This document shows positions 14,971 to 40,962 of a stretch of DNA of 64,000 bases, one piece after another (the first letter of the stretch is position 1; each line of letters opens with the position of its first letter). Source of the stretch: Limisalsivibrio acetivorans (GTDB taxonomy: Bacteria > Chrysiogenota > Deferribacteres > Deferribacterales > Geovibrionaceae). Under the pieces are notes generated by a model. It saw only the letters and a program-made list of their open reading frames with translations. It did not search any database and was not told where the DNA came from. A program made the translations under genes and the position numbers. The stretch is taken from contig NZ_ATWF01000001.1 in NCBI RefSeq assembly GCF_000421105.1, positions 2,181,407-2,245,406 on the forward strand, written 5' to 3'.

Positions 14971-14971
14971 A

Positions 14972-17817: not shown

Positions 17818-17820
17818 CGT

Positions 17821-18395: not shown

Positions 18396-19373
18396 ATGGT
18401 AAAGTTTATAGGCAGATATATCCAAACACTTAGTGCCGGGGATACCTATTTCGCCTCTGCGGAACTCCCCGAGAAGCTCAAGCTCTCTTCGCATCTAGTT
18501 ATGCTGAACTACGGTGAGCTCTGCCCCTTTACCCCCGAAGGTGTAGTTTATACTACTATAGATGACAGACTTCTCATCTGGTTCACTCGTATTCCTCTCC
18601 AGAGCGGAAAAATTCATATCCCCGAAGGGTGGGCGATGTGTTCATCCCTCAAAGGGGGGGATGCGGTTGTCATCGGCAGGGGTGAAGGCTCGGCGGTCTG
18701 CGTTGTGCGTGAGGGGAGGATGGTTTCCCAGATGATGAAGCCCCCCATGCGGAGTGACGAAGAGCTTGCAGAGCTCCTCACAAGGGAGCATTCCCTCAGG
18801 GAGCCCTTTATCATAGAGTCCAACGGCGATTATGAGATCACATTCTCCGATATATATACATTCGCCAGAACCCAGCTGGATTTTTCCAACTATTTCCGCA
18901 AGCTTGCCGCAGATTCCGTTATGCCCCTGATAGTTCTTTTTGCCGTTCTTTCTGTGGGGGATATTGCTGTATCGTCCTACATTAACAGCCGCGAGGAGTC
19001 TGTTAGCGAAGAGCTGAAGGAATACAGGAAGATGAATCTTCCCATCAGGGCGGATGTGGATGAGGCTAGGGCGAAGCTCGGGCGATGGGAGGATTTTAAT
19101 AAGCTTGTTCAGTTTTCCTCCCGTATCGGTGAGTACATGAACGCCATAGCATCCGCAACGAATGAGCTCAACGGCAGGCTTGAACTCATCGACTATGCAG
19201 GGATCTCCATCACCATACGCATGCAGTGCTCCTCGGCGAGTGACTTCATCGAAAAGTTTCAGGACACGGGAGCATTCTATGAGGTTAAGGTAAATTCCGC
19301 CGTTCCGGACAGGGATAATCCCTCAAAGGTTAATATCAATGCCCAGCTACTTCTGGCGGAGGCTCAGCAGTGA
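18396..19373 (+). CDS. gspL: Type II secretion GspL-like inner-membrane protein
   Basis: The 325-residue protein has a soluble N-terminal half of about 175 residues and one membrane segment at about 178-200 (SVMPLIVLFAVLSVGDIAV). A coiled-coil stretch (EESVSEELKEYRKMNLPIRADVDEARAKL) and a C-terminal ferredoxin-like domain like that of GspL/PilN follow. GspL recruits GspE to the membrane and binds GspM. The sequence is divergent and the assignment relies on architecture plus position before gspM, gspC and gspD. The ATG at 18396 begins the plus-strand operon; the next gene overlaps by 4 bp. Confidence 0.7.
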   Translation: MVKFIGRYIQTLSAGDTYFASAELPEKLKLSSHLVMLNYGELCPFTPEGVVYTTIDDRLLIWFTRIPLQSGKIHIPEGWAMCSSLKGGDAVVIGRGEGSAVCVVREGRMVSQMMKPPMRSDEELAELLTREHSLREPFIIESNGDYEITFSDIYTFARTQLDFSNYFRKLAADSVMPLIVLFAVLSVGDIAVSSYINSREESVSEELKEYRKMNLPIRADVDEARAKLGRWEDFNKLVQFSSRIGEYMNAIASATNELNGRLELIDYAGISITIRMQCSSASDFIEKFQDTGAFYEVKVNSAVPDRDNPSKVNINAQLLLAEAQQ

Positions 19374-19897
19374 TAAACCGTAAGACACTCATCTTCACCG
19401 CACTCCTCGCCTTCTATGTAATGTATGTGAACCCGCTTATTCAGGAATCCGCAGGAACCGTTTCCTCCGCTAATATTAAGAAGCGCACCCTTGTGCGTGA
19501 AAAGGCTGTATACGAGCACAGGGAAGAGGCCAAGGAAAAGGCGAAGGAACTTATAGAGATAAACAGGCAGAACGAGCAGATGTTCTACTCCGCCGAGAGT
19601 ACGGCGAGCATGGACTTTACAGGCATGCAGACACTCATGCGCAAGTTTGCTCAGGACAACGGGTGTTCATACAAGAATGCCATGTGGGCGGAGCCTATCC
19701 CGCAGGACTGGTACAGCGTCCTCTCCATGCAGGTTATCGTGGAATGTCCCCCTCAGGGGTTTCCCAGCTTTATAAACAGTATTACAGGATACGAGAAGCT
19801 TCTTACCATAGATACCATGATGGCGGCAAAACCGAGGAAGGAGGACCATCTTGTTTTCCGCGGCTTTGTATCCGGCTATAAGCTGAGGTCGGAATGA
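19370..19897 (+). CDS. gspM: Type II secretion GspM-like protein
   Basis: This 175-residue protein has one N-terminal membrane helix (TLIFTALLAFYVMYVNPLI), a charged coiled-coil stretch (HREEAKEKAKELIEINRQNEQ) and a C-terminal ferredoxin-like periplasmic domain. That is the GspM/PilO plan. Its GTG start overlaps the gspL stop by 4 bp (GTGA) and its end overlaps the following gene by 4 bp. GspM stabilises GspL and spaces the inner-membrane platform. Sequence similarity by eye is low; architecture and operon position carry the call. Confidence 0.65.
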   Translation: MINRKTLIFTALLAFYVMYVNPLIQESAGTVSSANIKKRTLVREKAVYEHREEAKEKAKELIEINRQNEQMFYSAESTASMDFTGMQTLMRKFAQDNGCSYKNAMWAEPIPQDWYSVLSMQVIVECPPQGFPSFINSITGYEKLLTIDTMMAAKPRKEDHLVFRGFVSGYKLRSE

Positions 19898-20436
19898 GGG
19901 ATATAAAGAAGCACGCCGTTCTTTACGGCATAGCGGCCGTTATTGCGATATATCATTTTATATCCGTCTTCCCCAGTTTTGCGGAACCGGAGCAGAAACG
20001 CCCCGATCTCCTGGATATGAACCCCCCCGTTGTACAGAAGCAGGGTGAGAAATTTACCTATGAGGACTACGGAACGCTCTGGGGTATTGCAAAAGCACCG
20101 GTAGAAGAAGAAAAGACAGAGGAAGTTGTTGATAAAGTCAGCCCTGCCGAAAGCTTCTTCCTTGAGAAGAACGGTACGCGGTTCCGTATTGCCAGTGAGA
20201 TTGATGAGAGCTACTATTGGGAGCTTTACGGCATTGCCGATTCAAGGGCAGGTAGCTTTGCCATATTCAGCAACCCTTCACCGGAGAGCCGTGGGTTCAA
20301 GGCGGCGGACGAGGGTGAGTACCTTGAGAAGAATCTATTGATAAAGAGGATCCTGGGAAGCAGGGTCTTTGTGGAATATACAAAAGACAGCAGTGTCTGG
20401 GAGCTTAAGGTTCTCAGTACGGAGGTTATGAGATGA
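19894..20436 (+). CDS. GspC-like clamp protein of the type II secretion system
   Basis: This 180-residue protein has an N-terminal membrane helix (AVLYGIAAVIAIYHFISVF), a proline- and acid-rich linker, and a small beta domain. WELYGIADSRAGSFAIFSNP and IKRILGSRVFVEY resemble the homology region of GspC that docks on the secretin's N0 domain. It lacks the PDZ or coiled-coil end of classical GspC, so it is a minimal version. The stop overlaps the secretin start by 4 bp, supporting a partnership with it. A PilP-type role is an alternative reading of the same fold. Confidence 0.65.
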   Translation: MRDIKKHAVLYGIAAVIAIYHFISVFPSFAEPEQKRPDLLDMNPPVVQKQGEKFTYEDYGTLWGIAKAPVEEEKTEEVVDKVSPAESFFLEKNGTRFRIASEIDESYYWELYGIADSRAGSFAIFSNPSPESRGFKAADEGEYLEKNLLIKRILGSRVFVEYTKDSSVWELKVLSTEVMR

Positions 20437-22562
20437 TAAACGGCAGAAGGATCGCTGTTTTTACCATATGCGCCCTTTTCATTGTTTTGGCCGGATGTAC
20501 TACGGCGAGCGAGAAGAAGGTTCGGGGTCCTATATTCAAGACAGCCTACGAGAAAGCGAGGGTCAATAAGGCTGAGGTTGAGAATACCTTTGCCGATGAT
20601 GAGGCTCCCCAGACCGAAGAAGAATTGATGGAAAGAAAGAAGGATATCGTTGAGGTTCCCACTCTGATGGAAGGGTATTCCGGCGGAGCTGTTTTCGTTG
20701 AGAACACCAGCTACGACGCCACAGAGCTAAAGCTCCCCTCCGGCGACGTGAATATTTCCGTTGATGACATACCTGTTAAGGAATTCATTATTACCGTTTT
20801 CGGTGATATTTTCGGCGTTACATATAATATGGATCCCGAAGTAGAGAAGATTAATAAAGGTATCACACTCCAGATGACCGAGAGCATGGAGAGTGACGAC
20901 TTCATGAACCTCGTTGTGGAGCTGCTTAAGAGGCACAATGTTGATGTAGAGATAAACAACGGAGCGTTCTTTTTCAGCAGAGGGAGAGGCAACTATCAGG
21001 CAGAGCCGGAGAAGCCCCTCGTTATTATTGGAAAGGATCTCCCTGTCGGACTCAATCCGCATACAATGGTAACACAGGTGATTCCGGTGCAGTACATAAA
21101 CCCTGATTACTATAAGTCATTTATACAGAAGCATGCCCTTGGCTTTGGCTCTAAAGTGGATACTGTTCCAGGAACAAAGACCATGATGATCACCGATAGG
21201 CTCTCAGACGTGAAAAGAGCTGTAAAGCTTGTGGAGGCATTCGACAGGCCCCAGCTTTTCGGCAAGAAGACAAAGCTTTACTACTTCGATAATATGTTGC
21301 CGTCTGAATTTAAAGTGGAAATTGAGAAGATCCTTAAAACCCAGGGCTATGAGATTGCAGAAAGCGGAAACGACCCCGGTGTACTGTTTATACCAATTGA
21401 TAGAATAGAGGCACTCCTTGTGGCCTACAGCAATGATAAATGGAACGAGACCATAAACTTCTGGAAAGAAAAACTTGATAAAGAGGTTTTTACAGGGGAG
21501 AAGAAGCGTCTCTTTGTATATAAGCCCAAGAACAGGGACGCCGAAAGTCTGCGCAGTGTATTTGAATCATTGGTCAGCGGGGCAAAAACACCCAGGCCTT
21601 CTGCTCAGGATAACCAAGAAGAGACTGCGAGTGTTAAAAGCAATGAAGGATCGGTGGAGCTTAAGGATTTTAGTATAAGCATCTCCGTGGACGAGGGGAG
21701 AAACCAGCTACTCATCTCTGCCACGCCTGCCGAATACAAAGAGTTTCTGCGTGTTGCGGAAAAGCTGGACTCACTCCCGAATCAGGTCCTTGTTGAAGTG
21801 ACCATCGCCGATGTAACGCTTACCGATGCATTGCAGTATGGAATAGAATGGTACCTGAAACAGAGCGGCGATTTCAACGGTGCTATCCAGACCATGGGAG
21901 GGCTTGGTGTAGGCGGAGCAGGTCTTGTCTACAGTGCGGCTAATGAGTCCGGTTATTTCAAGACGCTCATGAACGCCTTTGCTGAGAATGACCTAATTAA
22001 TGTCATTTCAACCCCACATATTCTGGTCCTTGACGGCAAGAATGCCAGTATAAATGTTGGTACCGAGGTGCCTGTTGTTACTTCGGAAACCTCAGCAGGC
22101 GACCTCGGAGGTACTGATAATAACCCCACAATTGTTAGAAATGTTCAGTACAGGAGTACAGGGGTAAGCCTTAGTGTTACTCCAGTTGTGAACTCCGACG
22201 GGTTTTTAACTATGACAATCTCGCAGGAGCTGAGCGAGGCGCAGAGCAACAGTACATCAAGCATTGACTCCCCGATAATCCTGAACAGAAGCATTCAAAC
22301 AGAGGTAAATCTTAAGTCCGGCGAGACAGTTCTCCTGGGTGGTCTTATAAGAGAAAACGAAAGTGAATCAATGAACAAGATACCCCTCCTTGGAGATATC
22401 CCCATTCTGGGGCATTTATTTAAGGTTCAGTCTATGTCGAAGCAGAAAACAGAGTTGATCATTCAGATAACACCGTATATACTTTCTCAGGCTGATGATG
22501 TAAGAAACATCGCCGATGCAGTGGAAAAGGAGTTTGAACTCATTAATCGTGAAGAGAGGTAA
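20433..22562 (+). CDS. gspD: Type II secretion outer-membrane secretin GspD (lipoprotein)
   Basis: It forms the outer-membrane gate. The 709 residues begin with a lipoprotein signal ending IVLAGC (Cys22), which is not general for GspD and suggests self-piloting to the outer membrane without a GspS. The N0 domain (VNISVDDIPVKEFIITVFGDIFGVTYNMDP) and N1-N3 repeats follow. The C-terminal secretin core includes VLVEVTIADVTL, VISTPHILVLDGKNASINVGTEVPVVT, and SGETVLLGGLIRE with IPLLGDIPILGHLF. It overlaps the gspC-like gene by 4 bp and is last in the plus-strand operon. No terminator is visible before the promoter of the surface-protein gene. Confidence 0.95.
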   Translation: MINGRRIAVFTICALFIVLAGCTTASEKKVRGPIFKTAYEKARVNKAEVENTFADDEAPQTEEELMERKKDIVEVPTLMEGYSGGAVFVENTSYDATELKLPSGDVNISVDDIPVKEFIITVFGDIFGVTYNMDPEVEKINKGITLQMTESMESDDFMNLVVELLKRHNVDVEINNGAFFFSRGRGNYQAEPEKPLVIIGKDLPVGLNPHTMVTQVIPVQYINPDYYKSFIQKHALGFGSKVDTVPGTKTMMITDRLSDVKRAVKLVEAFDRPQLFGKKTKLYYFDNMLPSEFKVEIEKILKTQGYEIAESGNDPGVLFIPIDRIEALLVAYSNDKWNETINFWKEKLDKEVFTGEKKRLFVYKPKNRDAESLRSVFESLVSGAKTPRPSAQDNQEETASVKSNEGSVELKDFSISISVDEGRNQLLISATPAEYKEFLRVAEKLDSLPNQVLVEVTIADVTLTDALQYGIEWYLKQSGDFNGAIQTMGGLGVGGAGLVYSAANESGYFKTLMNAFAENDLINVISTPHILVLDGKNASINVGTEVPVVTSETSAGDLGGTDNNPTIVRNVQYRSTGVSLSVTPVVNSDGFLTMTISQELSEAQSNSTSSIDSPIILNRSIQTEVNLKSGETVLLGGLIRENESESMNKIPLLGDIPILGHLFKVQSMSKQKTELIIQITPYILSQADDVRNIADAVEKEFELINREER

Positions 22563-22823: not shown

Positions 22824-24536
22824 ATGGACTTCAGAAAAATTGCTGTCGGCACAGCAGCCACTTGCCTCTTCGCAAGCTCTGCTTTCGCCGGTACAATCGG
22901 TTGTATTGAGCTCTACAAAGGCTCAGAGGCCGTTAGTACAACTCTTAGCCAGTACTCTGGCGCAGATTGCACAGGCGTTACTAACACAAACAAAGAAGTT
23001 AAGGTAGCTTACGAGCTTACAGATGACCTCGATCTTGACTTCTCAGACTTCGATGGTACTGGAAACGGTGACTCTGTTGTTGGCGGTGCTGCTGCTACAG
23101 ATGCTGCTGACGATCTTACAATCGTGTATATCCCCACTACGGATATTCCCTCAGGCTCACTCATCACTATGAAGCTTGCAGGCGCTACCTTCAACGAAGG
23201 CGGTACTCTTTACCTTCTTAAGGATGAAGATCCCGGTTCTCATGCAGCTGGTGATGACGACCTTGAGTCTGTAGCTTCTACTGACGGTGCTACTACTGAT
23301 ACAGACACTATCACTTTCGTAACTAAAGCTGGCGTAACTATCGATGCTGGTACAAGACTTGTAATCTCTTCCACTGAAGACACTGCTGGAAGCGATGACA
23401 ACGCTGACTACACTAACCTTGACATCAACATCGACAACGATGGATGTACTACTCCCGGTTCCACTGACAGCGTAACCCTTCAGGTTGAGTCAACTGTTAC
23501 TGACGGTGGCGGCGGATACTCCATCGCTGGTGCTGCAACTGCTGCAACAAAGATAGTTGATATCTCTGCCCAGTTCGACATATTCTACGGTCTCAGCGAC
23601 AGTGACGCTACTTCTGCTGAGGTAGATGTTGAAGCTACTACTCCCAGAACACTTTTCGTTCAGGATACAGCCACTGCTCTTGATGACGCCAGCACTCAGT
23701 TTGCAAACTATGAGTTTGTAACTGTGGACAACGCTGCTCTTCTTGACCAGGCTATAACAATCACCAACGATGACAATGTAGGTATGTCTTTCACACCTTC
23801 ACAGAATCTTGGAAGCTTCATGATTGTTAACCTCTTCGACGGTGTTGACAAGACTGGAAACCCCGATACTTTCGACACTGCAATCAGTGATGACGCTGCA
23901 GAGACTGATTTTGCTGTAAACGGTACAGAGTATGTATTCGACCTCAGCAACTTCACCAGAGGTGCAGACGATGTAACTGACTTCGACAGCACTGGTGGAA
24001 ACGAAGATGACGAAGTATACGTTCTTTTCGGTACTGACAACACAGACGAGACTATGGACTACGGTTACACTGTAACTGCTGGTTACCAGATCGATTTCAA
24101 CGACGCTGACGGCGAACTTGACCACTGCGCAGATTCTATCAGAACATTTGATATCGATATCAACGGTGCGGTTCTCAAGGTTCCCTACATGTTCAACACT
24201 GCTTCTAACTGGGTACGTATCTCTAACGAAGACGCAGAAGCTGCTGACATGTACATCGACATCTTTGACGAAACTGGCAACAACAAGCTCACTAACCTCC
24301 AGGTATCTGGAACAGAGCAGGTTCCCGCAGTTTCTTCCGTAGTTGTAAGAGCTAGCGATATCATCGCTGCTGCAATGGCTGCAGACCCCACTTACACTAT
24401 GACAAACGACAGATTCTTCGCTACATTCACAATTACTTCTCCCAAGGACAAGGTTCACGGCGTAGCTGTTCAGGCTATCCCCGGTGGAGTAGACAGGGTT
24501 ATCCCCGTTCTCGACCAGAACAACTGGGCTCAGTAA
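22824..24536 (+). CDS. Secreted acidic surface protein, S-layer-like
   Basis: A 22-residue signal peptide (RKIAVGTAATCLFASSAFA) precedes a mature protein of about 548 residues. It is very rich in Asp, Thr, Ala and Gly with very few Lys or Arg, as in S-layer and other crystalline surface proteins. At least four Cys remain after cleavage, so disulfides are possible. Two N-x-T sites (Asn366, Asn376) could be glycosylated. Codon use is strongly biased (GCT, ACT, AAC, GAC), the ribosome site is perfect, the leader is long and the terminator strong. All of this points to very high expression. No known domain is recognised and no surface-anchoring module is seen. Position right after gspD suggests it may be a type II secretion substrate; that is inference. 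Confidence 0.75.
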   Translation: MDFRKIAVGTAATCLFASSAFAGTIGCIELYKGSEAVSTTLSQYSGADCTGVTNTNKEVKVAYELTDDLDLDFSDFDGTGNGDSVVGGAAATDAADDLTIVYIPTTDIPSGSLITMKLAGATFNEGGTLYLLKDEDPGSHAAGDDDLESVASTDGATTDTDTITFVTKAGVTIDAGTRLVISSTEDTAGSDDNADYTNLDINIDNDGCTTPGSTDSVTLQVESTVTDGGGGYSIAGAATAATKIVDISAQFDIFYGLSDSDATSAEVDVEATTPRTLFVQDTATALDDASTQFANYEFVTVDNAALLDQAITITNDDNVGMSFTPSQNLGSFMIVNLFDGVDKTGNPDTFDTAISDDAAETDFAVNGTEYVFDLSNFTRGADDVTDFDSTGGNEDDEVYVLFGTDNTDETMDYGYTVTAGYQIDFNDADGELDHCADSIRTFDIDINGAVLKVPYMFNTASNWVRISNEDAEAADMYIDIFDETGNNKLTNLQVSGTEQVPAVSSVVVRASDIIAAAMAADPTYTMTNDRFFATFTITSPKDKVHGVAVQAIPGGVDRVIPVLDQNNWAQ

Positions 24537-24732: not shown

Positions 24733-25436
24733 CTGAATCCGTTTCTAATTCCTCTGCTTCATTAAAATACTTCATACTCATATAACGTTTTGTTCCTCAC
24801 TGAGTCCCAGCAGCATGACGTAATCTAGCACACACCAGCACCAGGGCTGAATTGCCGTCAGGGAAAGTTCCAACCACATGTATTCATCGCCGTATCTACC
24901 TGCTAAGCCGCTCAATCACGTTATTCGTCCTAATTTTGAGAAAGTAAGCATAAGGAAACGTCATATAGGCCAAAATCTACTCTATGCTGTGTTCAAAATT
25001 TTTAACAAATACTCTTTGTTTCAACCTCGAAGCTTCGGTGTAACAGCCTTAAACTTCTCTAAGGCATGAATGGCTTTAAGCATAGCTGCCAAAGCTCTCA
25101 CCTTAGTTCTAGGTGTAACCGAAAATACATCCCTGTAAAAATGAACCATACAGCGATGGTACTTGGCATACAAATAGACTTCACTAAGTGCATCAACAGG
25201 CCCAAGGCACTTATCTCCGATAAAAAGCTGAACACCCTTTAAACCTCGTTCGTTAAGATCACAGAGGAAGTTTCTCAAAATCTCCTTATTTTCCTTCATT
25301 CCTCCTGATGCACCGATTACGTGATGTAACCTTCTTCATTTACATTTATTGCCATTAGTACATCAATGTTATCCATATGAACCACCCTAGTTACGTTGAG
25401 GTATATACCATCCAAAAGACGGATAGCTACACTCCA
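24733..25436 (-). pseudogene. IS256-family transposase pseudogene
   Basis: Pieces of one transposase appear in three frames. First, 25436 to about 25320 gives LLDGIYLNVTRVVH and then INVNEEGYI, including the first catalytic Asp, and ends at a frameshift and stop. Second, 25299-25021 gives ERGLKGVQLFIGDK and YHRCMVHFYRDV, the second catalytic region. Third, after another frameshift, ILAYMTFPYAYFLKIRTNN-VIERLSR continues to HVVGTFPDGNSALVLV, with in-frame TAG and TGA stops. This is the family's C-terminal ERLNREIRRR / VVGxFP region. The gene is dead; any mobility would need a transposase in trans. Confidence 0.85.
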
Positions 25437-25463
25437 GCTTCATGTTCTGTCAATTGTTAGTTG

Positions 25464-25481
25464 TCTTGACGGTACTATACA
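25464..25481 (-). repeat. Right terminal inverted repeat of the IS256 remnant
   Basis: On the minus strand it reads TGTATAGTACCGTCAAGA, matching the left repeat except at two positions. Confidence 0.75.
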
Positions 25482-25578
25482 GATAGATAATTGTGGAAGA
25501 ATCGATATACTCACATTGAGAAGAACTACGCGCTAAGTTATGGTGTTGTTTGTATCATAAATAGTAGTAGTTGTAGAA

Positions 25579-27594
25579 TCAATGATGGATGCGTTTATAA
25601 ACCTTGGTATAAGGGTATCCGTTTGTAACCAGACTGAAGTTTGATTTATCGTAATTACCTAATATATACATCTGAATGAGCTGTGAATTGAAAACGTAGT
25701 CATGCATCAGCATTACATTGTAAACCTTTTCTCCATTTATCAGCATAAACACCATATAGTAACCTTCATCCCAGTCGAAATCTTTTCGTCCTGCAACTCC
25801 GTCAGAATTGACAAAAACATTGCTCATAATTTTAGCAGAACCGTTAATGATACCATTCCGCATGTCAACTTTTAGAGCCCCGCAGGTTAGCTCATCCTCT
25901 GCTGTCGGTTTGCAACGTAAATGTGAGATAAGAGGGCTACCGGAGTCCGTTTGCCCCCAGTTTGCCATGTGCTTCATTGACGGTGTTTTATGTAGCATAT
26001 CTTCAGACAAGAAAAGATAGTAGTCAGAGTTGTCAGATTGATAGCTTGTTATATAATCTTCGTAGCTTTCCAGACTATTAAAAGTTTCATGTGCTGTATA
26101 TACTCCCTTAAGGCCATTGTCATAAACATAGTCAAATATGGACAATGCATCACTCTCATTGTCATTCATAATTGCTTTTGCAATTAAATTGGTCACAGGT
26201 TTGGAGTGTGTTCCGGGATCGATGAAAGTCTTGGACTGCTGTAAATCTTGAAGCATATATCCATTTCCCCACCAGGAGAAGACTGGTTTGTTATTAAGCT
26301 CAGTTGTAAGTATTGCTGTATCGAGTATTTCACTCAATAATGCTGGTTTGTTGTATGTGATCGTCCAGGAACTAGAAAATGGAGTAAGCACCAATAGAAT
26401 TAATGCAGGTAGTGTTGAAAGATGTTTAAATAGCTCGTGGGGATGGTAGTTGTTATACAGCCATCTTCCTGCCAAAAAGAATAAGTATGCAAAACCGGAA
26501 CCAGCAAAGATAGTTGCATACATAGAAAAACGAATCCCCACAAAGAATGTCATGAGGGAAAGTATTAGGATTGGAAGCATCAGCAGGGTCCTCTTACGTT
26601 CAAATATGAACAATAAAATTGTGCCTATGAAGCCGGGTATTGCAATCGATGCAAACTCAAAAACTGCTCTGGATGTTTTTAAGAAGTCCAGCTGTTTGAG
26701 CTCATTGATAGTTGATGAAGAGGATGGAAAAATAAAGCGGGCTGTATCAGCGCTTGGAGTCTCAGATGTTATTATAAAGTTTCTCAAGGTATACATTATG
26801 TCAGTAATGCCGGCCAAAAAGAAGTGCGGACCGGATGACACAAGGAATAGTACAGTGCTTACTGTGATCATGCGTATGTTGGATTTATTCACAAATAATG
26901 CAGCAATTAGAGAGAATGAGAAAAACAACTGCATACTCGGATGGTTATACCAAAGGATATATAAATACATTGAAACACCAGCAACAATAGCAAGAAGATA
27001 TTTAATAAGTTCCTTTCTTTGTAAAACCAATTCAGTAAGAATGTATGCCACAAGTACAGGGAAAAACAGGTTCAGAATATCAGTATCAACCCTGCCGAAG
27101 CTTGTTCTGATGGTGTATTCAAAACTGGTCGCTGTTACAAGTGCACCGGCAAATCCTATTAAAGGCAGACCAATGCGTACGAATAATAGAATAATTGGAA
27201 TAACAGCTAAGGCGGGAAAGTAGGTCTGCATCCATATGCCTGCATTCCAGACGCTCATGCCGGATATAGACGAGATCTTTGCCAGCATTATGCTGATAAG
27301 AGGGACTCTTTCAGGATATTTTGAGCCCGTGGGGTAGAGCCGTTTAGTGTCAGGTTCTCCTGCTTTATAGGTACCTTCTTTCAGTTCGTTTGCGTACCTT
27401 GTCCAGTAGTGGGCATCAAGGGTTGTAAATGAAGGAAAATCAAGTTGAGTCATAAAGCGCTCTCTGTGTTCCCCCATAGCTTTATTATACTGCTTAACCC
27501 TCATTCCTGTTCCGATAGAATACGCAATTACTATCATCAGAAACACGGCGATTACTTTGAATGATTTATTCTCAGAGAGTGCTTTGATATCCAT
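25579..27594 (-). CDS. PglB/STT3-type oligosaccharyltransferase with variant WWGNG motif
   Basis: This 671-residue protein has about 13 predicted membrane helices followed by a periplasmic domain from about residue 415. Family landmarks occur in order: an acidic residue in the first loop (LDAHYWTRYANELKEGTY, Asp60), the DTD motif (RTSFGRVDTDIL, 170-172), the TIxE-like TINELK (Glu298), GIRFSMYA (Arg355), and WWGNGYML (441-445) followed by TFIDPGTHSKPVTNLIAKAIM. Bacterial PglB has WWDYG and DGGxH at these points. It would move a lipid-linked glycan to Asn of exported proteins. The changed motif leaves activity or sequon choice open. The gene is AT-rich and lies between the IS remnant and a divergent glycosyltransferase. 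Confidence 0.8.
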   Translation of the reverse strand: MDIKALSENKSFKVIAVFLMIVIAYSIGTGMRVKQYNKAMGEHRERFMTQLDFPSFTTLDAHYWTRYANELKEGTYKAGEPDTKRLYPTGSKYPERVPLISIMLAKISSISGMSVWNAGIWMQTYFPALAVIPIILLFVRIGLPLIGFAGALVTATSFEYTIRTSFGRVDTDILNLFFPVLVAYILTELVLQRKELIKYLLAIVAGVSMYLYILWYNHPSMQLFFSFSLIAALFVNKSNIRMITVSTVLFLVSSGPHFFLAGITDIMYTLRNFIITSETPSADTARFIFPSSSSTINELKQLDFLKTSRAVFEFASIAIPGFIGTILLFIFERKRTLLMLPILILSLMTFFVGIRFSMYATIFAGSGFAYLFFLAGRWLYNNYHPHELFKHLSTLPALILLVLTPFSSSWTITYNKPALLSEILDTAILTTELNNKPVFSWWGNGYMLQDLQQSKTFIDPGTHSKPVTNLIAKAIMNDNESDALSIFDYVYDNGLKGVYTAHETFNSLESYEDYITSYQSDNSDYYLFLSEDMLHKTPSMKHMANWGQTDSGSPLISHLRCKPTAEDELTCGALKVDMRNGIINGSAKIMSNVFVNSDGVAGRKDFDWDEGYYMVFMLINGEKVYNVMLMHDYVFNSQLIQMYILGNYDKSNFSLVTNGYPYTKVYKRIHH

Positions 27595-27663: not shown

Positions 27664-28878
27664 ATGAATTTTTGGCTCTTGCAAACAGGAGAACCCCTTC
27701 CGATAAAATCGGGCAACAGAAAGATAAGAACGGCTCTGCTCGCTGAAGAGCTTATCAGCAGGGGGCACTCTGTAACATGGTGGTCCAGCAGGTTCGATCA
27801 TATAACCAAAGAATGGATTGGTGATGATACTTCAGTAGAATACAATGGAATAAGCTACCGGCTCCTTGAGGGTTACGGATATAAAAAGAATATCTCACTC
27901 AGACGATTCAGAGACCACAGGAAAGTGGCTGCGGACTTCCGTAAAAGAGCCCTAACAGAAGAAAAACCGGACCTGATTCTTGCATCAACACCAGCCTACG
28001 ATCTTGCCCATGAAGGGGCTAAGTATGCATATAAACGTGAGATCCCCCTGATAGTCGATATCAGGGATGAATGGCCTGATATATTTCTGAGCTACCTTCC
28101 AGAACCACTAAGACCGATTGGCAGGCTTGCGCTGTATAAGGATTCTGCAATGCTTCGGCACACACTAGCCCACGCCGACGGTCTTGTTAGCATGATGGAA
28201 GAGATGCTTGACTGGGGGCTTGGGAAATTGAACCGCAGCAGGAGAGAAAGCGACCGGGTCTTTTACCTTGGCAGCAGGGCTGTTACCGTACCATCAAACA
28301 CTCCTGATAAACTGAAAAGAATCGAGAAGAACGTGGGGAAGTGCTTCATCGCCTCATATGTGGGAACGTTCAGTGCAAATAATGATCCTTCGGATATTAT
28401 AAAGGCAGCACATTTGATGAAAGATGAGCCTGTGCTTTTTGTAATGGGGGGTGACGGTGACATGCGTGAATCCCTTGAAAAAGATGCAGCCGGGCTTGAT
28501 AATGTTATATTTACGGGCTGGCTGAATGAGCTGGAGATGGCAAAACTACTCTCATGGAGCGCATGCGGAATAACAACCGCTCCGGCAAAGAGAAGTGCTT
28601 TCCCAAATAAGGTATTTGTCTATCTATCGTTTTCTCTGCCCTTGATATCAGCCTGGCATGGTGAGCTCAGGGACTTAATTGATAAAGAAAGTATAGGACT
28701 AAACTTTGAGCCGGGGCATTGTGAAGAGCTGGCAGGATGCATTAGAAAATTTATGGATGAAAAAACGAGAAATCGCTTTTCCTCCAATGCTGGAAATATA
28801 TTCAAAGAACGCTTTGATGCCGATAAGATTTACTCCGATTATGCGGACTATCTAGAGGAAATTGCCAATGAGCGATAA
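27664..28878 (+). CDS. Family 4-like glycosyltransferase
   Basis: This 404-residue GT-B enzyme is of the WbuB/WcaI type. Its N-terminal half starts MNFWLLQTGEPLPIKSGNRKIRTALLAEELISRGHSVTWW and includes LIVDIRDEWPDIF. The C-terminal half holds YVGTFSANNDPSDIIKAAHLM, FMGGDGDMRESLEK-like sequence and TAPAKRSAFPNKVFVYLSFSLPLISA, the donor-binding E/PxK-type region. Donor and acceptor cannot be read from sequence. It is divergent from the oligosaccharyltransferase across a 69-bp gap and overlaps the next gene by 11 bp. Confidence 0.85.
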   Translation: MNFWLLQTGEPLPIKSGNRKIRTALLAEELISRGHSVTWWSSRFDHITKEWIGDDTSVEYNGISYRLLEGYGYKKNISLRRFRDHRKVAADFRKRALTEEKPDLILASTPAYDLAHEGAKYAYKREIPLIVDIRDEWPDIFLSYLPEPLRPIGRLALYKDSAMLRHTLAHADGLVSMMEEMLDWGLGKLNRSRRESDRVFYLGSRAVTVPSNTPDKLKRIEKNVGKCFIASYVGTFSANNDPSDIIKAAHLMKDEPVLFVMGGDGDMRESLEKDAAGLDNVIFTGWLNELEMAKLLSWSACGITTAPAKRSAFPNKVFVYLSFSLPLISAWHGELRDLIDKESIGLNFEPGHCEELAGCIRKFMDEKTRNRFSSNAGNIFKERFDADKIYSDYADYLEEIANER

Positions 28879-29635
28879 TTTTAATGAGATAACCGAAGTA
28901 CCCGGACTTCAAGCGAGTGTAGAACAGCTCCAGAGGCTTTATCAACGTTACCGTTTTGCTGTTGAAAACACAGAAGGGCCTGTACTTGAAGCGGCCTGCG
29001 GCTCCGGAATAGGGCTGGGCTACCTTGCGGAAAAGCTTGGGCGGGCTGATGGTTGCGACATCGATAAGGAGAACCTCCGCATTGCATCTGAACTGCACAG
29101 GGATAATGAGTCCGTTGAGGTCTTCGAGTTCGATGCATGCAGGCTCAGGGAGATAGATAAGGAATACGGGCTGATAATTCTCTATGAGGCTGTATATTAT
29201 CTTGATGATATAGAGAGTTTTATATATGGAGCAATGGAGAAGCTTAAAAAAGGTGGCTGGCTCATTATCTGTTCGGTGAACCCTGAATGGAAGGATTTCC
29301 ACCCATCCCCTTATGCTAGGCGATATTACACAGCGGCGGAACTGGCTGCGTTTGCCGGGAAGTATTTCAGCACTGTTGAAACATATGGAGCTTTCCCCTC
29401 TGCCCCTGCCGGAGCAAAGGACAGGGCCTTCTCCGTGCTTAAGCGTGGAGCAACAAAGATGAACCTTATTCCTGGCAGTTTACGTCTTCGAACCTATCTT
29501 AAGAGGATCTTTATGGGCGAGCTGAAGCCGATCCCTGAAGCAGTTACAGACAATATGATCGATTACGAACCACCCGTACCGTATATCGGCGGGGACGAGT
29601 ACAAGATAATATATATGGCAGCACAGAAGGACTGA
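28868..29635 (+). CDS. Class I SAM-dependent methyltransferase
   Basis: The SAM-binding motif I is VLEAACGSGIGLGYLAEKLG (about residues 38-57), with the acidic motif II residue in GCDIDKENL and post-motif LIILYEAVYYLDD. The 255 residues fit a methyltransferase fold with a C-terminal addition. I start at the ATG at 28868, not the TTG at 28862. Tight linkage to glycosyltransferase and transketolase genes suggests it methylates a sugar in the glycan. A role on a lipid-linked intermediate or an alternative substrate cannot be excluded. Confidence 0.8.
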   Translation: MSDNFNEITEVPGLQASVEQLQRLYQRYRFAVENTEGPVLEAACGSGIGLGYLAEKLGRADGCDIDKENLRIASELHRDNESVEVFEFDACRLREIDKEYGLIILYEAVYYLDDIESFIYGAMEKLKKGGWLIICSVNPEWKDFHPSPYARRYYTAAELAAFAGKYFSTVETYGAFPSAPAGAKDRAFSVLKRGATKMNLIPGSLRLRTYLKRIFMGELKPIPEAVTDNMIDYEPPVPYIGGDEYKIIYMAAQKD

Positions 29636-29639
29636 ATCA

Positions 29640-30419
29640 ATGGATATGAAAGAGATATGCTCCCGGGCACGACTCGGGATACTGGACATGATCTATAAAA
29701 CCGGTGGACCTCATATAGGCTCATCTTTTTCCATGGTGGAGGCGCTGGCTGTTCTCTATTTCAAGGTTATGGATTTTGGAGAGAACAGGGACAGGTTTCT
29801 GTTGAGCAAAGGGCACGCATGCCCCGGGCTCTATGCGATACTCCATCTGAAAGGCTTGCTGAGCGATGAGGACATCGAGGGGTTTGCAGTGAACGGAGGC
29901 ACCCTTGAACAGCATCCGATGATCGATACTGCAAAGGGTATAGAGGCGGCCACGGGCTCCCTCGGGCACGGTCTTTCGCTCGGTAACGGTATGGCACTTG
30001 CGGCGAAGCACGACAGTAGCCCGTCCAGGGTATTTGTTATGCTGGGGGATGGAGAGCTGAACGAGGGAATGGTGTGGGAATCCGCATTATTTGCCGCACA
30101 TCACAAGCTTGATAATCTGACTGTAATGATAGACAGAAACAAGATTCAAGCCCTTGGGGATACCGAGGATGTTCTGGTTCTTGAGCCCATTGAGGATAAG
30201 TGGAAAAGCTTCGGCTGGGATGCTTTACGTGTAGACGGACATGATATGGACGCCGTTGAATCTGCACTCAACACGAATCGGAACGGAAAACCCCTTGCCA
30301 TAGTGCTGGATACGGTTAAGGGGAAGGGTGTTTCTTTTATGGAGGATAAGCTCCTCTGGCACTACAGGGCGCCGGATGATGATGAATACACTAAGGCAGT
30401 TGAGGAGCTTCAAGTATGA
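29640..30419 (+). CDS. Transketolase, N-terminal (thiamine diphosphate-binding) subunit
   Basis: This 259-residue protein equals the PP domain of transketolase. LLSKGHACPGLYAILHLKG and GSLGHGLSLGNGMALAAK precede the ThDP/metal motif LGDGELNEGMVWESALFAAHHKLDNLTVMIDRN. The stop overlaps the next ATG by 4 bp, and the next gene encodes the Pyr domain, so together they make a split transketolase. Split forms are often found in bacterial sugar and secondary-metabolite clusters, not in central metabolism. A role in making an unusual sugar by two-carbon transfer is inferred from the location. Confidence 0.9.
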   Translation: MDMKEICSRARLGILDMIYKTGGPHIGSSFSMVEALAVLYFKVMDFGENRDRFLLSKGHACPGLYAILHLKGLLSDEDIEGFAVNGGTLEQHPMIDTAKGIEAATGSLGHGLSLGNGMALAAKHDSSPSRVFVMLGDGELNEGMVWESALFAAHHKLDNLTVMIDRNKIQALGDTEDVLVLEPIEDKWKSFGWDALRVDGHDMDAVESALNTNRNGKPLAIVLDTVKGKGVSFMEDKLLWHYRAPDDDEYTKAVEELQV

Positions 30420-31336
30420 GGAACGATTTTTTCAAAAGGCTCCACGAACATTTTGCCGACAACACCGATACATACCTGTTAACAGGGGATCTCGGGTTTG
30501 TGTTGTTCGACCCTTTTCGTGATACGGACCCGAAAAGGTTCATAGACGCAGGAGCGGCCGAGGCGAATATGGTGGGAACAGCGGCAGGGCTCGCCCTGTC
30601 GGGCAAGAAGGTTGTCTGCTACTCCATCACCCCATTTCTCACCATGCGGGCATTCGAGCAGGTACGGCTCAATCTGGCTCTGCACAATGCGGATGTGAAG
30701 CTCGTCACTGTGGGGGGCGGATTCACCTACGGATTCGAAGGCTACACCCACTTCGGTTTTGAGGACCTTGCATTAATGGCCTCCCTGCCAAACATGCGAA
30801 CCTTTGCTCCGGCGGACACCACGGATGCTGTTAACCTGGCGGACTGGTGTATGCAGGACAACGGGCCGGCATATATACGGCTTGGAAGGCAGGCTGAGGA
30901 GAGTATATATGAGCTGGAAACACCCTTCCTATCGGGAAAAGCAGTTCATCTCAGAAAGGGGACGGACGGTCTTATAATTGCCACTGGCTCCATGGTGCAG
31001 AGTGCTCTGCAGGCGAGGGAAATCCTCTCAGAAGAGGGTATAGACGCAGGGGTTCTCTATGTGCACACGCTTTCACCCTTTGACAGTGAGGGGGTGGCTG
31101 AGATAGCAGGGAGGTATCCTGCGGTTGTTACTGCCGAGGAGCATAATCTTCTCGGCGGTCTCGGCAGTCAGGCGGCACAGGCACTCCTTGAAGCGGGGAA
31201 AGCCCCGAGGTTTAAGATGATCGGCATAGAAAACTACGACCGTAATCTTATAGGCGATGCTGAGTATCTGCGTGAGCGGTACGGTTTATCTGGTACAAAC
31301 ATCGCAGAAACGTTAAAGAAACTAATAATTAAGTAA
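30416..31336 (+). CDS. Transketolase, C-terminal (pyrimidine-binding) subunit
   Basis: The 306 residues carry the Pyr domain (RFIDAGAAEANMVGTAAGLALSGKKVV, with the Glu that contacts ThDP; MRAFEQVRLNLALHNADVKLV; GFTYGFEGYTHFGFEDLALM). The C-terminal transketolase domain follows (GLIIATGSMVQSALQAREIL, VVTAEEHNLLGGLGSQAAQALLE). It pairs with the subunit encoded just upstream (4-bp overlap). All parts of a working enzyme are present across the pair. Its neighbour downstream is a sugar aminotransferase, 12 bp away, which again suggests a sugar-building role. Confidence 0.9.
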   Translation: MRNDFFKRLHEHFADNTDTYLLTGDLGFVLFDPFRDTDPKRFIDAGAAEANMVGTAAGLALSGKKVVCYSITPFLTMRAFEQVRLNLALHNADVKLVTVGGGFTYGFEGYTHFGFEDLALMASLPNMRTFAPADTTDAVNLADWCMQDNGPAYIRLGRQAEESIYELETPFLSGKAVHLRKGTDGLIIATGSMVQSALQAREILSEEGIDAGVLYVHTLSPFDSEGVAEIAGRYPAVVTAEEHNLLGGLGSQAAQALLEAGKAPRFKMIGIENYDRNLIGDAEYLRERYGLSGTNIAETLKKLIIK

Positions 31337-31348
31337 CAGGATAAAGAT

Positions 31349-32446
31349 ATGGAAGTTCGCTTTTTCGATTACCCAAAGCAGTTCGGCATAGATGCAGAAA
31401 ACTACGAGAGAATTATCATGGAAACCCTCCGGAAGGGTGCATACATACTTGGGGCTGAGCTTGAATCCTTCGAGCGGAATCTGGCGGAGTATGTGGGCGT
31501 TAAGCATGCGGTGGGCGTCAACAACTGCACAGATGCCATACTCATCTCCCTTCTTGCGGCTGGTGTCGGGCCCGGGGATGAGGTCATAACCGTTTCCCAC
31601 ACCTTTGTGGCCACTGTGGAGGTTATCAAATTCACAGGAGCCGAGCCGGTTCTTGTGGATATCGGCGAGGACAGGTGCATGGATGTCAGCAAGGTTGAGG
31701 AGGCTATAACTCCTAAAACTAAAGCGATAGTGCCCGTTCAGCTAAATGGGCGCATCATGAAAGGGATGGATAATCTTATGGAGATTGCGGAGAAGCATGG
31801 CCTTTCCGTTATCGAGGATTCATCCCAGGCCATTGGCGCAGAGCTTAACGGCAAAGGCGCTGGCTCCATAGGGCTAACAGGCAACTTCAGCTTCTACCCC
31901 GCCAAGGTTCTCGGAGCCTTCGGTGATGCGGGAGCTATCACCACCGATGATGATGAGATAGCCGAAAAGGCGAAGCTTCTGCGAAACCACGGCCGTGCGC
32001 CCAGCGGCGAGATAGTTATGTGGGGGCTTAACAGCCGTCTGGATAACGTCCATGCCGCTATACTCGACTATAAGCTCACCAGGCTGGATGAAAATATTGA
32101 GAAGAGACGTGTATTAGCAAAGATCTACCACGATAAACTGAAAGGAATAGAGCAGCTGGTGCTCCCCGCCTATGACGGTGACGGACACCGTGATGTTTTC
32201 CAGAACTATGAGATTGAGGCGGAGAACAGGGAGACGCTGGAGAAGTATCTGGCTGATAAAGGTATCCAGACACCCCGCCAATGGGGTGGCAAGGGGGTCC
32301 ATCAGTTTGAGAAGCTCGGGTTTGATGTCTCCCTGCCGAGAACTGAGCTGTTCTTCAGCAGATGCCTGCTTCTACCCCTTTATCCCGAGCTTGAGACGGA
32401 GAAGGCGGAATATGTCGCAGACACCATAGCCGGATTCTATGCCTAG
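31349..32446 (+). CDS. DegT/DnrJ/EryC1 family sugar aminotransferase
   Basis: This 365-residue PLP enzyme would aminate a keto-sugar nucleotide, normally with glutamate. It has the N-terminal GAYILGAELESFERNLAEYVG and VNNCTDAILISLLAAGVGPGDEVIT phosphate-binding blocks, the Asp of VIEDSSQA (157), and the Schiff-base Lys186 in SFYPAKVLGAFGDAG. The 3-amino transferases WbpE and FdtB are the closest remembered types. The oxidoreductase and acetyltransferase encoded at 37255-38963 could act before and after it. It ends in a convergent 4-bp overlap with the next gene. Confidence 0.9.
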   Translation: MEVRFFDYPKQFGIDAENYERIIMETLRKGAYILGAELESFERNLAEYVGVKHAVGVNNCTDAILISLLAAGVGPGDEVITVSHTFVATVEVIKFTGAEPVLVDIGEDRCMDVSKVEEAITPKTKAIVPVQLNGRIMKGMDNLMEIAEKHGLSVIEDSSQAIGAELNGKGAGSIGLTGNFSFYPAKVLGAFGDAGAITTDDDEIAEKAKLLRNHGRAPSGEIVMWGLNSRLDNVHAAILDYKLTRLDENIEKRRVLAKIYHDKLKGIEQLVLPAYDGDGHRDVFQNYEIEAENRETLEKYLADKGIQTPRQWGGKGVHQFEKLGFDVSLPRTELFFSRCLLLPLYPELETEKAEYVADTIAGFYA

Positions 32447-33204
32447 TCTATAACTGCGAATCCCACGTAAGGGTCGAAGTCGCAGCGCTCAAGGCGCAGG
32501 TTGTTTATGCCTATACTGTCCAGAAGTGCAAGGGTTTCGCCGGGCCAGAGCGGATTGTCCAGTTCGTCAAAGGCTATGACAGACCCTTTGGGCATCCTTG
32601 GCACAAAGTGTTCAAGGGCAACCTTTGTGGGCTCATAAAGATCAAAGTCCATAAAGAGAAGGCTCACAACCGTGTGCGGGTTTTCTTCCAAGAACTTTGG
32701 GATGCTCTCTTCCGCCTTGCCTGGCACGAAGCGCATCTTTTCCATATGGCCGAGGAAGCGGTTTTTGTCGAAGGCACCTTTCAAATCCTCTAGCTCTTCA
32801 AGGGCGTGGGAGGCGAGGTCACCTTTTTCGGGTGTGCCGAGGGATGTTTTATCCTGCTCGGATATAGTAGGAAAACCCTCAAAGGTGTCGAATCCGTATA
32901 TCCTTCTGGTGAGGTTGTTCGGCTCCAGTATCTCGCTGAAATGTCCCCAGCTGAACATGCCAAATCCTTTGAAAACGCCGCATTCAATGATAGAACCCTT
33001 AACATTCAAAACTCTTTTAAAAATCTCATAGCGTGCGAGGAACTTGGTCATATCCTGCCTGCGGACGTATTTGGGGAAGTGTCTCAGCTTCGTTTTTGTA
33101 TCATCCTCTGAGGATTCAAATATTCTTTGATAATCCTCCACAGCCTCCGCCTCGCGGTTGGTTGCAAAGGGGTTTTCCTTGGTGAGTTTATTTTTACCCG
33201 GCAT
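32443..33204 (-). CDS. TylF/MycF-like O-methyltransferase
   Basis: This 253-residue protein resembles the macrocin O-methyltransferase family, metal-dependent enzymes that methylate sugar hydroxyls. GSIIECGVFKGFGMFSWGHF is the SAM-binding block, IYGFDTFEGFPTI the following family motif, and SLLFMDFDLYEPTKVALEHF the metal-binding acidic region. Members of this family are common in O-antigen and glycosylation clusters. The gene stands alone on the minus strand. It is convergent with the aminotransferase (shared CTAG at the stops) and divergent from the gene at 33295. Confidence 0.82.
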   Translation of the reverse strand: MPGKNKLTKENPFATNREAEAVEDYQRIFESSEDDTKTKLRHFPKYVRRQDMTKFLARYEIFKRVLNVKGSIIECGVFKGFGMFSWGHFSEILEPNNLTRRIYGFDTFEGFPTISEQDKTSLGTPEKGDLASHALEELEDLKGAFDKNRFLGHMEKMRFVPGKAEESIPKFLEENPHTVVSLLFMDFDLYEPTKVALEHFVPRMPKGSVIAFDELDNPLWPGETLALLDSIGINNLRLERCDFDPYVGFAVID

Positions 33205-33294
33205 TGTAAACCTCTTTTAATATCTGTAAAACAGAACAAATTTTAGCATAATATTGTATCTTGCTGAATACAATTATTACGAATATGATTCATT

Positions 33295-34569
33295 ATGTTC
33301 AAGATTACAGCACCCGAAGGAATGAGGGAAGAGAGAGAATACATTTGTTTTGTTCTTTTTACAGAGATGCTGAGGGCACCTTACACCTTGGAGTTACGTT
33401 CTGACTGTGAAAAGTGGACTATTGCAGATGCAGGTCGCTCCCTTTCTTTCGATGACAGTTTCCTTCCACTCTTAAAGGATAAAGGTCTCGAAAGTAGTGA
33501 GATTTTGCCGGACCAGCTCATAAGCATAGACACGGAATACGGAAATATTTGTGGACTTTACGGTTCCGGCGATTCCTCTGGTAATACACTAGGCATTGAT
33601 ATTTTCGGTTCCGCCTTCTTCATGCTGACACGTATAGAGGAGATGCAGGAGACTGTGGAGGACAAACACGGCAGGTTCCAGCTCAAGAACTCAGTAGCAG
33701 AAAAGCTTGGGGTATATCACAGGGCTCTTGTGGATGACTATACGGCTTTTCTTGCATCATATTTTGATCTTAGTAAGCCTGAGCGAATTACAGAGCTTAC
33801 CCACGATATAGATTATCCTTACTGCTACGGACTGAACTCTTTTACATTTAAGAATACATTTGCACCTGCAAAAAGAGGGGATTTACAAGCTGTTGTTAGA
33901 AATATTTATGATATATCAACGGTTATCGCCGGCAGAAAGAAGGATCCCTTCGACCGTTTCGACAGCTTTATGGACATAGCTGAAGAGTTCGGTAAAAGAG
34001 CGGTCTTCTTCTTCATGACAGGGGGAAAAGGGGAGTATGATCCACCTTTTAATACAAAGCATGATAGAAGAGTGAAGCGGATTATTGAGCATGTGAAGGA
34101 GAGGGGGCACGAATTAGGCATACATTTCTCTTACAACGCAGATATTGAAAACCTTTACAGAAGTGAGAAGGATATCCTCGAGAATATTGTAGGTGCTGAA
34201 ATAACGAAATCAAGGAATCATTTCCTTCGTTTTTCTGTACCAGAAACATGGCGGAAACTTGAGGATGCCGGGATAAGTGAGGATTATACCTGCGGTTTTG
34301 CTGAAAAACCCGGCTACCGGTGCGGTACAGGCAAACCTTATTCGGTTTTTGATGTTGAGCAAAGACTGATGCTCCGGCTTCGTGAGCACCCCCTTTATCT
34401 GATGGATGCTACTGTTACATCGTATATGAGGTATTCTGAAAAGAGATTATTTGAGTATATCGAAGAAAGCAAAGCCACATATGGAGGCGGTTCTTTACTT
34501 TGGCACAATTCATCCAAGCTTTCCGCAGATACTTATTACAAAACAGTTTCTAAGATTGACAGGGAGTGA
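33295..34569 (+). CDS. Polysaccharide deacetylase-like protein with N-terminal extra domain
   Basis: The first 155 or so residues form an alpha/beta extension (LIGxSI-type LISIDTEYGNICGLYGSG, FGSAFFMLTRIEEM) that I know from deacetylase-like proteins of polysaccharide loci. The NodB-like part has THDIDYPYCYG in place of TFDDG and GHELGIHFSYN as the second metal motif. An MTGGKGEYDPPF segment lies between them. It would act on a surface glycan or a peptidoglycan-like substrate, but a true catalytic activity is not certain. It is followed by two glycosyltransferase genes with close spacing. Confidence 0.75.
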   Translation: MFKITAPEGMREEREYICFVLFTEMLRAPYTLELRSDCEKWTIADAGRSLSFDDSFLPLLKDKGLESSEILPDQLISIDTEYGNICGLYGSGDSSGNTLGIDIFGSAFFMLTRIEEMQETVEDKHGRFQLKNSVAEKLGVYHRALVDDYTAFLASYFDLSKPERITELTHDIDYPYCYGLNSFTFKNTFAPAKRGDLQAVVRNIYDISTVIAGRKKDPFDRFDSFMDIAEEFGKRAVFFFMTGGKGEYDPPFNTKHDRRVKRIIEHVKERGHELGIHFSYNADIENLYRSEKDILENIVGAEITKSRNHFLRFSVPETWRKLEDAGISEDYTCGFAEKPGYRCGTGKPYSVFDVEQRLMLRLREHPLYLMDATVTSYMRYSEKRLFEYIEESKATYGGGSLLWHNSSKLSADTYYKTVSKIDRE

Positions 34570-34572
34570 CGT

Positions 34573-35610
34573 GTGAAGATTCTCTACGTATGCGAAAGAG
34601 ATTTACAGGACAAAACCGGAGTTAGTAAAAAAATTGTAGATCAGGCATCCTTATGGAAAAAGTTAGGCCATGAGGTTGATTTATATTCAATCTATTCTCA
34701 CACTTGGCAGACTCTGGATTCCTTTGTGTCCACAGCCTCTGGTGAAAAATATAGATATGGAGTTTTTGGAAGGGGATTGAACCTAAAGGACGCCCTCAAA
34801 GAAGGCGACTGGGATATTGTCTATCTCCGGTATCATTTTTACGTACCATTCCTTAAACAAGCTTTAAAAAGATTTAAGGTTGTAATGGAAATTAATGCTG
34901 ACGATAGAGAAGAGTACGATTTATCCGGGAGATCTTTCGGGGTCTACAACAGAGCAACAAGAAATCTTGTATTAGATATACCTGACGGGTTTGTATTTGT
35001 TACGGAAGAACTTAGAGACAGATTTAAACATGAAGCAAGAAGTCTTGTACTTGGGAACGGTATAAGTGTCCCCGACCCATTGAATATTCAAAATGAAGGA
35101 CAAAGACCAAAAGCAGCATTTATTGGAACGCTGAAACAGCCATGGCAGGGCACCGATATTTTGCTTAAGATTGCACAGCAGATTCCCGAGTGTGATTTCC
35201 ATATAATCGGTGGTGAAGGTGATAGTAAGGCAAACATATTTTATCACGGGTTTATGAGTGAACCCGAGGACCTTTTGTCCGGTTGTGATGTTGGCTTCGG
35301 GACATTGGCATGGATAAGGAAGGGGCTGAAGGATGCGTGTACTCTTAAGGTAAGGGAGTACCTTTCGCTTGGGCTTCCTGTTGTATATGCATATAATGAA
35401 GTGGATCTTTCCGGCGAAGAACCCTTTGCATTAAAACTCGGCCACTACGAGGAGGATATCCTTTCCTCTATAGAAGAGATAAAAGCCTTTTTACACAAAG
35501 CGCATATGAACAATGAGTTGCGCAGGCAGGCCCATGAGTTTGCCAAAAATAATTTGGATGTATCCGTAAAGGAGAAGAAACGTCTTGAATTTATGGAGAG
35601 TCTTTTGTGA
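34573..35610 (+). CDS. Glycosyltransferase (GT-B fold)
   Basis: This 345-residue protein starts at a GTG (34573) with AGGGAG a few bases upstream. The N-terminal half runs KILYVCERDLQDKTGVSKKIVDQASLWKKLGHEVDLYS. The C-terminal half has KAAFIGTLKQPWQGTDILLKIAQQIPECDFHIIGGEG and LKVREYLSLGLPVVYAY, the nucleotide-sugar binding region of family 4/1 enzymes. Donor and linkage cannot be predicted. The gene is AT-rich and overlaps the next glycosyltransferase by 4 bp (GTGA). Confidence 0.8.
   Translation: MKILYVCERDLQDKTGVSKKIVDQASLWKKLGHEVDLYSIYSHTWQTLDSFVSTASGEKYRYGVFGRGLNLKDALKEGDWDIVYLRYHFYVPFLKQALKRFKVVMEINADDREEYDLSGRSFGVYNRATRNLVLDIPDGFVFVTEELRDRFKHEARSLVLGNGISVPDPLNIQNEGQRPKAAFIGTLKQPWQGTDILLKIAQQIPECDFHIIGGEGDSKANIFYHGFMSEPEDLLSGCDVGFGTLAWIRKGLKDACTLKVREYLSLGLPVVYAYNEVDLSGEEPFALKLGHYEEDILSSIEEIKAFLHKAHMNNELRRQAHEFAKNNLDVSVKEKKRLEFMESLL

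Positions 35611-36640: not shown

Positions 36641-36644
<4 letters not shown>
35607..36644 (+). CDS. Family 4-like glycosyltransferase
   Basis: The 345-residue GT-B protein begins KILFVGDASSIHIKKWVDYF, with DVLNVHFSYSMGLVTSLANIGTGIPMTVVCHGSDILAPP in the N-terminal domain. VYVSATMSDGTSLSLLEAIGSGCFPVVSDIPSNREWI at the C-terminus is the E-x7-E donor-sugar motif region of GT4 enzymes. The start is a GTG overlapping the upstream stop. It ends in a 4-bp convergent overlap with the sugar-phosphate transferase gene on the other strand. It should extend the same lipid-linked glycan as the preceding gene's product. Confidence 0.85.
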
Positions 36645-38959
<2,315 letters not shown>

Positions 38960-38963
<4 letters not shown>

Positions 38964-40816: not shown

Positions 40817-40865
40817 CGGCTGTCCTGTGCAGCGGCGGGTTATGCCGGTATTATTAAAGTTGTCA

Positions 40866-40894
40866 ATTGTATATAAATTGGCTCTGCAATTCAA
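40866..40894 (-). promoter_or_regulatory. Likely sigma-70 promoter of the amino-sugar operon
   Basis: On the minus strand, TTGAAT (40889-40894) and TACAAT (40866-40871) are separated by 17 bp. Transcription would start about 43 nt before the dehydratase ATG at 40816. Confidence 0.45.
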
Positions 40895-40962
40895 TAGTAC
40901 ATTATATCCGGCCATAAGTCCTGGGTTTGCTTATTTTTATATCAATATGGATTCCAAGATGT

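Follow-up and report, generated by a model that had tools for sequence, protein, structure and literature searches.

A PglB-type oligosaccharyltransferase with WWGNG in place of WWDYG, encoded near a type II secretion system in Limisalsivibrio acetivorans

The pilin oligosaccharyltransferases (OSTs) of Acinetobacter are O-linked enzymes of the PglL/Wzy type, whose fold is unrelated to that of PglB/STT3. One of the two OSTs of Acinetobacter is reportedly devoted to the type IV pilin (Harding et al. 2015). The PglL and RbmD enzymes of Vibrio cholerae, also of the O-OTase type, influence the output of the type II secretion system (T2SS), an effect that is genetic (PMC6901666). Helicobacter pullorum contains a second divergent PglB, PglB2 (23% identity between the two), which showed no N-OST activity in the tested hosts and keeps the WWD motif, and the part of the source covered mentions no link of this enzyme to a T2SS (PMC6025236). 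In PglB, the Asp and Trp residues of WWD bind the hydroxyl group at position +2 of the acceptor (PMC7226087), and inactive clones of Campylobacter jejuni PglB were found to carry the D459V, D459N (with S492C), Y460N and G476D substitutions (PMC3527161). In the literature searched, which covered few subscription papers, neither a PglB/STT3 enzyme lacking the WWD Asp nor a PglB linked with a T2SS was found to be described, and novelty is therefore provisional.

The window analyzed here, a stretch of 64,000 nucleotides of the Limisalsivibrio acetivorans genome, contains at positions 25579-27594 of the reverse strand an ORF with an ATG start and no internal stops that encodes a PglB/STT3-type OST of 671 amino acids. 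The codons at 26260-26274 (reverse strand), read directly from the DNA, are TGG TGG GGA AAT GGA, and residues 441-445 are WWGNG, with Asp443 replaced by Gly and Tyr444 by Asn, which bears out the substitution of WWDYG proposed by a previous sequence-only reading of this DNA. Both the N-terminal membrane domain and the core domain of the enzyme score above the Pfam cut-offs (STT3, PF02516, 62.2 bits, 8.6e-17, cut-off 24.5; STT3-PglB_core, PF21436, 24.2 bits, 5.1e-5, cut-off 23), which places it in the PglB/STT3 family (GT66), and its score with the NCBIfam PglB equivalog NF050801 is 116.2 bits, below the cut-off of 1300. The AlphaFold2 model, obtained with 28 homologues (mean pLDDT 88, pTM 0.87), confidently predicts a whole-length PglB fold including the C-terminal domain, and its nearest solved structure is C. 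lari PglB (5ogl, TM 0.81/0.77).

The structural alignment with the C. lari and C. jejuni PglB enzymes (5ogl, 3rce, 6gxc; 18-19% identity) revealed equivalents of D56, R147, D154, D156, E319, R375 and the two WWD Trp residues. The mapped catalytic set (D60, R163, D170, D172, E298, R355, W441 and W442) is complete, and the first six of these residues take part in metal, amide and donor binding. The family landmarks listed in the sequence-only reading could be confirmed (the acidic first-loop residue is D60, and the others read D170-T-D172, T-I-N-E298 and G-I-R355-F), and the random decay of other catalytic residues that this reading had considered as contrary evidence was not observed. In contrast to the Campylobacter enzymes, the window OST lacks the WWD Asp that binds the +2 Ser/Thr (Gly443), carries Asn at the Tyr of WWDYG, and contains DPG instead of DGG. 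The latter change lies in the DxGxH-like segment claimed to follow the motif, which is indeed present but not unaltered, since residues 458-463 (26206-26223, reverse strand) read IDPGTH, with Pro replacing Gly460 in an otherwise conserved DGG segment. The place of the bacterial MxxI motif opposite WWD is occupied by S-E-D-M-L-H-K, similar to other Deferribacterota, and the residue set of Campylobacter is different.

To place these substitutions among homologues, 120 sequences including the window OST were aligned, including Deferribacterota, Desulfurellales, Campylobacterota and another phylum. Position 443 in the other 119 sequences is Asp in 113, Ser in three, Asn in one and a gap in two, and the loss of Asp443 is not a chance event because nearly all homologues keep this residue. 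No other sequence has Gly at this position, so that the search for homologues sharing WWGNG yielded none with this exact motif but did yield three Asp-less enzymes reading WWSEG, all from one genus of the other phylum (genomes G872, G873 and G874). The window OST and these three WWSEG enzymes are the only ones of the 120 that replace the Asp by a residue other than Asn, and also the only ones that contain Pro460 (IDPGTH and FVDPGSQ, respectively). All 35 non-redundant relatives examined, the majority of them from Deferribacterota and Desulfurellales, have Asp443 and Gly460; in the 51 Deferribacterota genomes searched, the other full-length PglBs in which the motif was read all keep WWD, with Y, F or D as the next residue, and all aligned members of the Campylobacterota sample (30 sequences) are WWDYG. 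No orthologue of the window OST was found among the 51 genomes of its phylum, nor a close one in any other genome searched, and no relatives were found in the viral contigs and plasmids searched.

Some other variants were observed in this set. The PglB of Denitrovibrio sp. BM701 (L071:9876-11873) reads WWDDG, a Tyr to Asp variant that is unique in the set, and in three Calditerrivibrio-type genomes (L077, L078 and L079) a pair of PglB genes lies in tandem, each encoding WWDFG. In L064 (at the D170 equivalent) and in L117-L119, the first Asp of DxD is changed to K or R with an intact WWD, i.e., a change of the metal site. Moreover, short STT3-like proteins of 530-590 amino acids are encoded in eight Geovibrionaceae genomes (L072:7879-9504, L080:8365-9981 and L083:7328-9088, and also L038, L039, L041, L042 and L043), and they are the sole PglB-like protein found in seven of the eight. 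All of them have lost the first Trp of WWD (QWDNG, LWDNG, VWDNG, GWDHG or HWNYG) but keep the other catalytic residues, and the three tested score below Pfam detection.

As in H. pullorum and Acinetobacter, the window OST belongs to a genome with two OSTs. The second enzyme, encoded on contig C2 (G000:C2), also has 671 amino acids, is 28% identical to the window OST and contains an intact WWDYG, and its gene adjoins an aminopeptidase gene and is distant from glycan genes. The presence of this canonical enzyme implies that ordinary N-glycosylation need not depend on the window OST, but it is silent on what the window OST does. A second WWDYG enzyme carrying all N-glycosylation had been regarded as an argument against the earlier proposal; such an enzyme does exist, which bears out half of that argument.

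The genes near the window OST encode a T2SS and the synthesis of a lipid-linked glycan. The T2SS cluster comprises, on the reverse strand at 12816-18246, the genes for GspK, two minor pseudopilin-like ORFs, GspF, GspE and GspG (17821-18246), and, on the forward strand at 18396-22562, an ORF at the GspL position with no family match (18396-19373), a weak GspM match (19370-19897), an ORF without assignment (19894-20436) and the GspD secretin (20433-22562). This T2SS is flanked by lipid-linked glycan genes at 8002-12819 (a Wzx-like flippase, a Wzy/O-antigen-ligase type protein, a WecG-type glycosyltransferase and a WbaP-type priming transferase, the latter adjoining GspK), and glycan biosynthesis genes are also found at 27664-40915, beyond the OST as seen from the T2SS (GT4 enzymes, methyltransferases, a DegT aminotransferase, a small sugar-phosphate transferase, an acetyltransferase and a PglF/WbpM-type dehydratase). 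The OST gene lies 7.3 kb from gspG, 3.0 kb from gspD and 1.0 kb from a gene encoding a secreted or surface protein of 570 amino acids (22824-24536, forward strand). The window OST lies by a pseudopilin gene, and the pilin-dedicated OST of Acinetobacter is a fitting precedent; the V. cholerae PglL and RbmD proteins are likewise glycan-transferring enzymes linked to T2SS output but without a PglB fold. Between the surface protein and OST genes there is a decayed transposase fragment, IS256-like by eye (24900-25500, reverse strand), and the GC content of the OST gene (39.5%) and of the adjoining intergenic stretch (39.1%) versus that of the window (48.3%) is compatible with a foreign origin.

The position and the signal-like N terminus of the surface protein make it a candidate T2SS cargo and a candidate acceptor. 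It has no family match, its relatives in 80 genomes are restricted to a paralogue from L. acetivorans itself and a protein of the WWSEG genome G872 that matches weakly (E 5.6e-4), which is no more than suggestive, and only the C-terminal beta domain of its model has fair confidence, the remainder being unusable. The two N-x-T sites described previously, N366 and N376, are present and lack an acidic residue at -2, but they are fewer than the 5.7 sequons expected from composition and provide no evidence of glycosylation. The idea of a sequon-rich acceptor is therefore not supported, and nothing specific supports N366 and N376 as targets of the OST. Sequons occur in GspD and GspK as well. The lack of a sequon in the GspG of this system was also discarded as a special feature, since most ordinary GspGs have no sequon either and this lack is not diagnostic.

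The link between the OST and the T2SS is not restricted to the window. Each of the three WWSEG OST genes immediately precedes gspG and gspE, followed by gspF if the contig, which ends within 5 kb, extends that far, whereas the window OST is not directly adjacent to gspG. The GspG and GspE proteins of the window are 66-68% and 62-65% identical, respectively, to those encoded beside the WWSEG OSTs, which are their closest relatives found. Other matches to the window GspG are those of G147 (62%, partial at a contig end) and G864/G865 (53-56%), while 62 ordinary GspGs, including that of the second T2SS of the same genome on C2, are at most 48% identical to it. In the GspG tree the sequences of the window, the WWSEG genomes, G147 and G864/G865 form a clade with support 100/99, within which the window and the WWSEG genomes are grouped with 97/91, and we propose the name T2SS-b for the distinct lineage of T2SS defined by this clade. 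An OST gene is present within 10 kb of GspG in five of seven T2SS-b loci versus one of 62 others (Fisher 1e-5), or in three of four T2SS-b lineages when the linkage is counted by lineage (p 3e-4). In the other two T2SS-b loci, GspG is accompanied by a gene for a WbaP-type priming transferase, so that every T2SS-b locus seen adjoins a lipid-linked glycan gene. Both a T2SS of this clade nearby and loss of the WWD Asp together with DPG, which define the T2SS-b-associated OST group proposed here, are found in the window. The T2SS-b-linked OST of G147 keeps WWDFG; thus, linkage to the T2SS does not require the loss of Asp, and a loss common to all T2SS-b OSTs was rejected.

An OST tree built without the motif columns places the window OST beside the Deferribacterota/Desulfurellales enzymes and the WWSEG enzymes within the group of the other phylum. 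Forcing the four Asp-less OSTs together costs 79 lnL units, also with the motif columns removed, and a single inherited family was rejected by the AU test, a test that is limited by long branches. The window OST has one of the longest branches (1.8-2.05), which makes its exact place in the tree unsure. Nevertheless, the aligned sequences favor separate losses of the Asp in the window and WWSEG lineages, so that the change appears to be parallel, and the shared Pro460 looks like a compensation or co-adaptation. The parallel change beside the same kind of T2SS suggests a secretion-linked glycosyltransferase with altered targets rather than a random error.

Taken together, these data are best explained if the window OST is a second, specialized PglB-type OST of T2SS-b with altered acceptor recognition, a reading to which we assign a probability of roughly one-half (about 0.48). 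According to this proposal, the enzyme would act in the periplasm, where a glycan carried by undecaprenyl diphosphate would be transferred to one of the components or cargo proteins of T2SS-b. The pocket for the +2 Ser/Thr would have been rebuilt by the replacement of Asp with Gly, of Tyr with Asn and, in the next loop, of Gly with Pro, with the catalytic residues kept, and would no longer select Ser/Thr at +2; hence the enzyme should use sites that are not necessarily N-x-S/T, and the canonical C2 enzyme may serve the ordinary sequons.

The main rival, that the window OST is inactive and decaying after the canonical WWDYG enzyme took over its role, and that its likeness to the WWSEG enzymes is coincidental, appears rather unlikely but accounts for several observations. 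Besides the canonical paralogue, the long branch, the adjoining IS256-like remnant and the lack of an orthologue within the 51 genomes of the phylum, the window OST departs from the consensus more often than any of its relatives, at seven of the 32 positions that are near-invariant; three of the seven departures sit in the motif loop, a clustering that is not significant (p 0.10). Moreover, the three changed positions correspond to D459, Y460 and G476 of C. jejuni PglB, and mutation of these residues in inactive clones makes a loss of activity on N-x-T substrates the default expectation, a normal activity of the window OST on N-x-T peptides being unlikely. On the other hand, all 671 codons are intact, the mapped catalytic residues are kept and the fold is confidently predicted, and the match of the enzyme to the consensus rises steadily from 19% in the least conserved columns to 78% in the most conserved ones, which is a sequence pattern indicative of constraint. 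Furthermore, the identical Gly to Pro change and the same T2SS neighbor occur in an independent lineage that is under purifying selection: dN/dS is 0.081 for the closest WWSEG pair (G873/G874) and 0.21-0.23 for more distant WWSEG pairs, with dS near saturation, while the canonical OSTs from the genus of the WWSEG enzymes give 0.126. The alternative posed by the sequence-only reading, an inactive enzyme or one with a different acceptor, was the right frame and is partly supported, the support for a changed function coming from outside the window.

It is less probable still that the window OST is an intact pseudo-transferase that regulates T2SS-b or glycan assembly, or that it hydrolyzes the donor or uses a non-protein acceptor, without N-glycosylation. 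The retention of donor and metal residues alongside a changed sequon-reading pocket would fit such a role, as would the surroundings of the gene, a locus for a lipid-linked glycan that includes a Wzy/ligase-type gene of its own, and the loss from the WWSEG enzymes of the D-M-x-x-K segment close to the acceptor pocket. However, the two residues that in PglB hold the amide of the acceptor are present both in the window OST (D60 and E298) and in the WWSEG enzymes, an indication that an amide acceptor has been retained. Finally, an ordinary N-x-S/T OST that tolerates the substitution and modifies the same acceptors with no new specificity, the two Trp and their neighbors being sufficient, is very improbable, since the Asp is otherwise near-invariant and its substitution inactivates characterized PglB, even though both Trp are kept, the PglB Trp also bonds the +2 hydroxyl and the surface protein, GspD and GspK all contain sequons.

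The specialized role proposed for the window OST could extend to a class of T2SS-dedicated OSTs of the PglB fold that have repeatedly dropped the WWD Asp and glycosylate T2SS components or cargo off N-x-S/T, a generalization that we consider doubtful at present. If such a class is real, evolution would have produced a PglB that chooses its acceptors independently of the sequon. The WWD Asp is the basis of the N-x-S/T rule, and natural enzymes selected without this residue but with the catalytic machinery would show the role of the Asp and its possible replacements, the canonical enzyme of the same genome allowing a clean comparison. The link to one T2SS lineage also suggests a specific place for the substrate hunt, and an OST of this kind could provide a glycoengineering enzyme free of the sequon.
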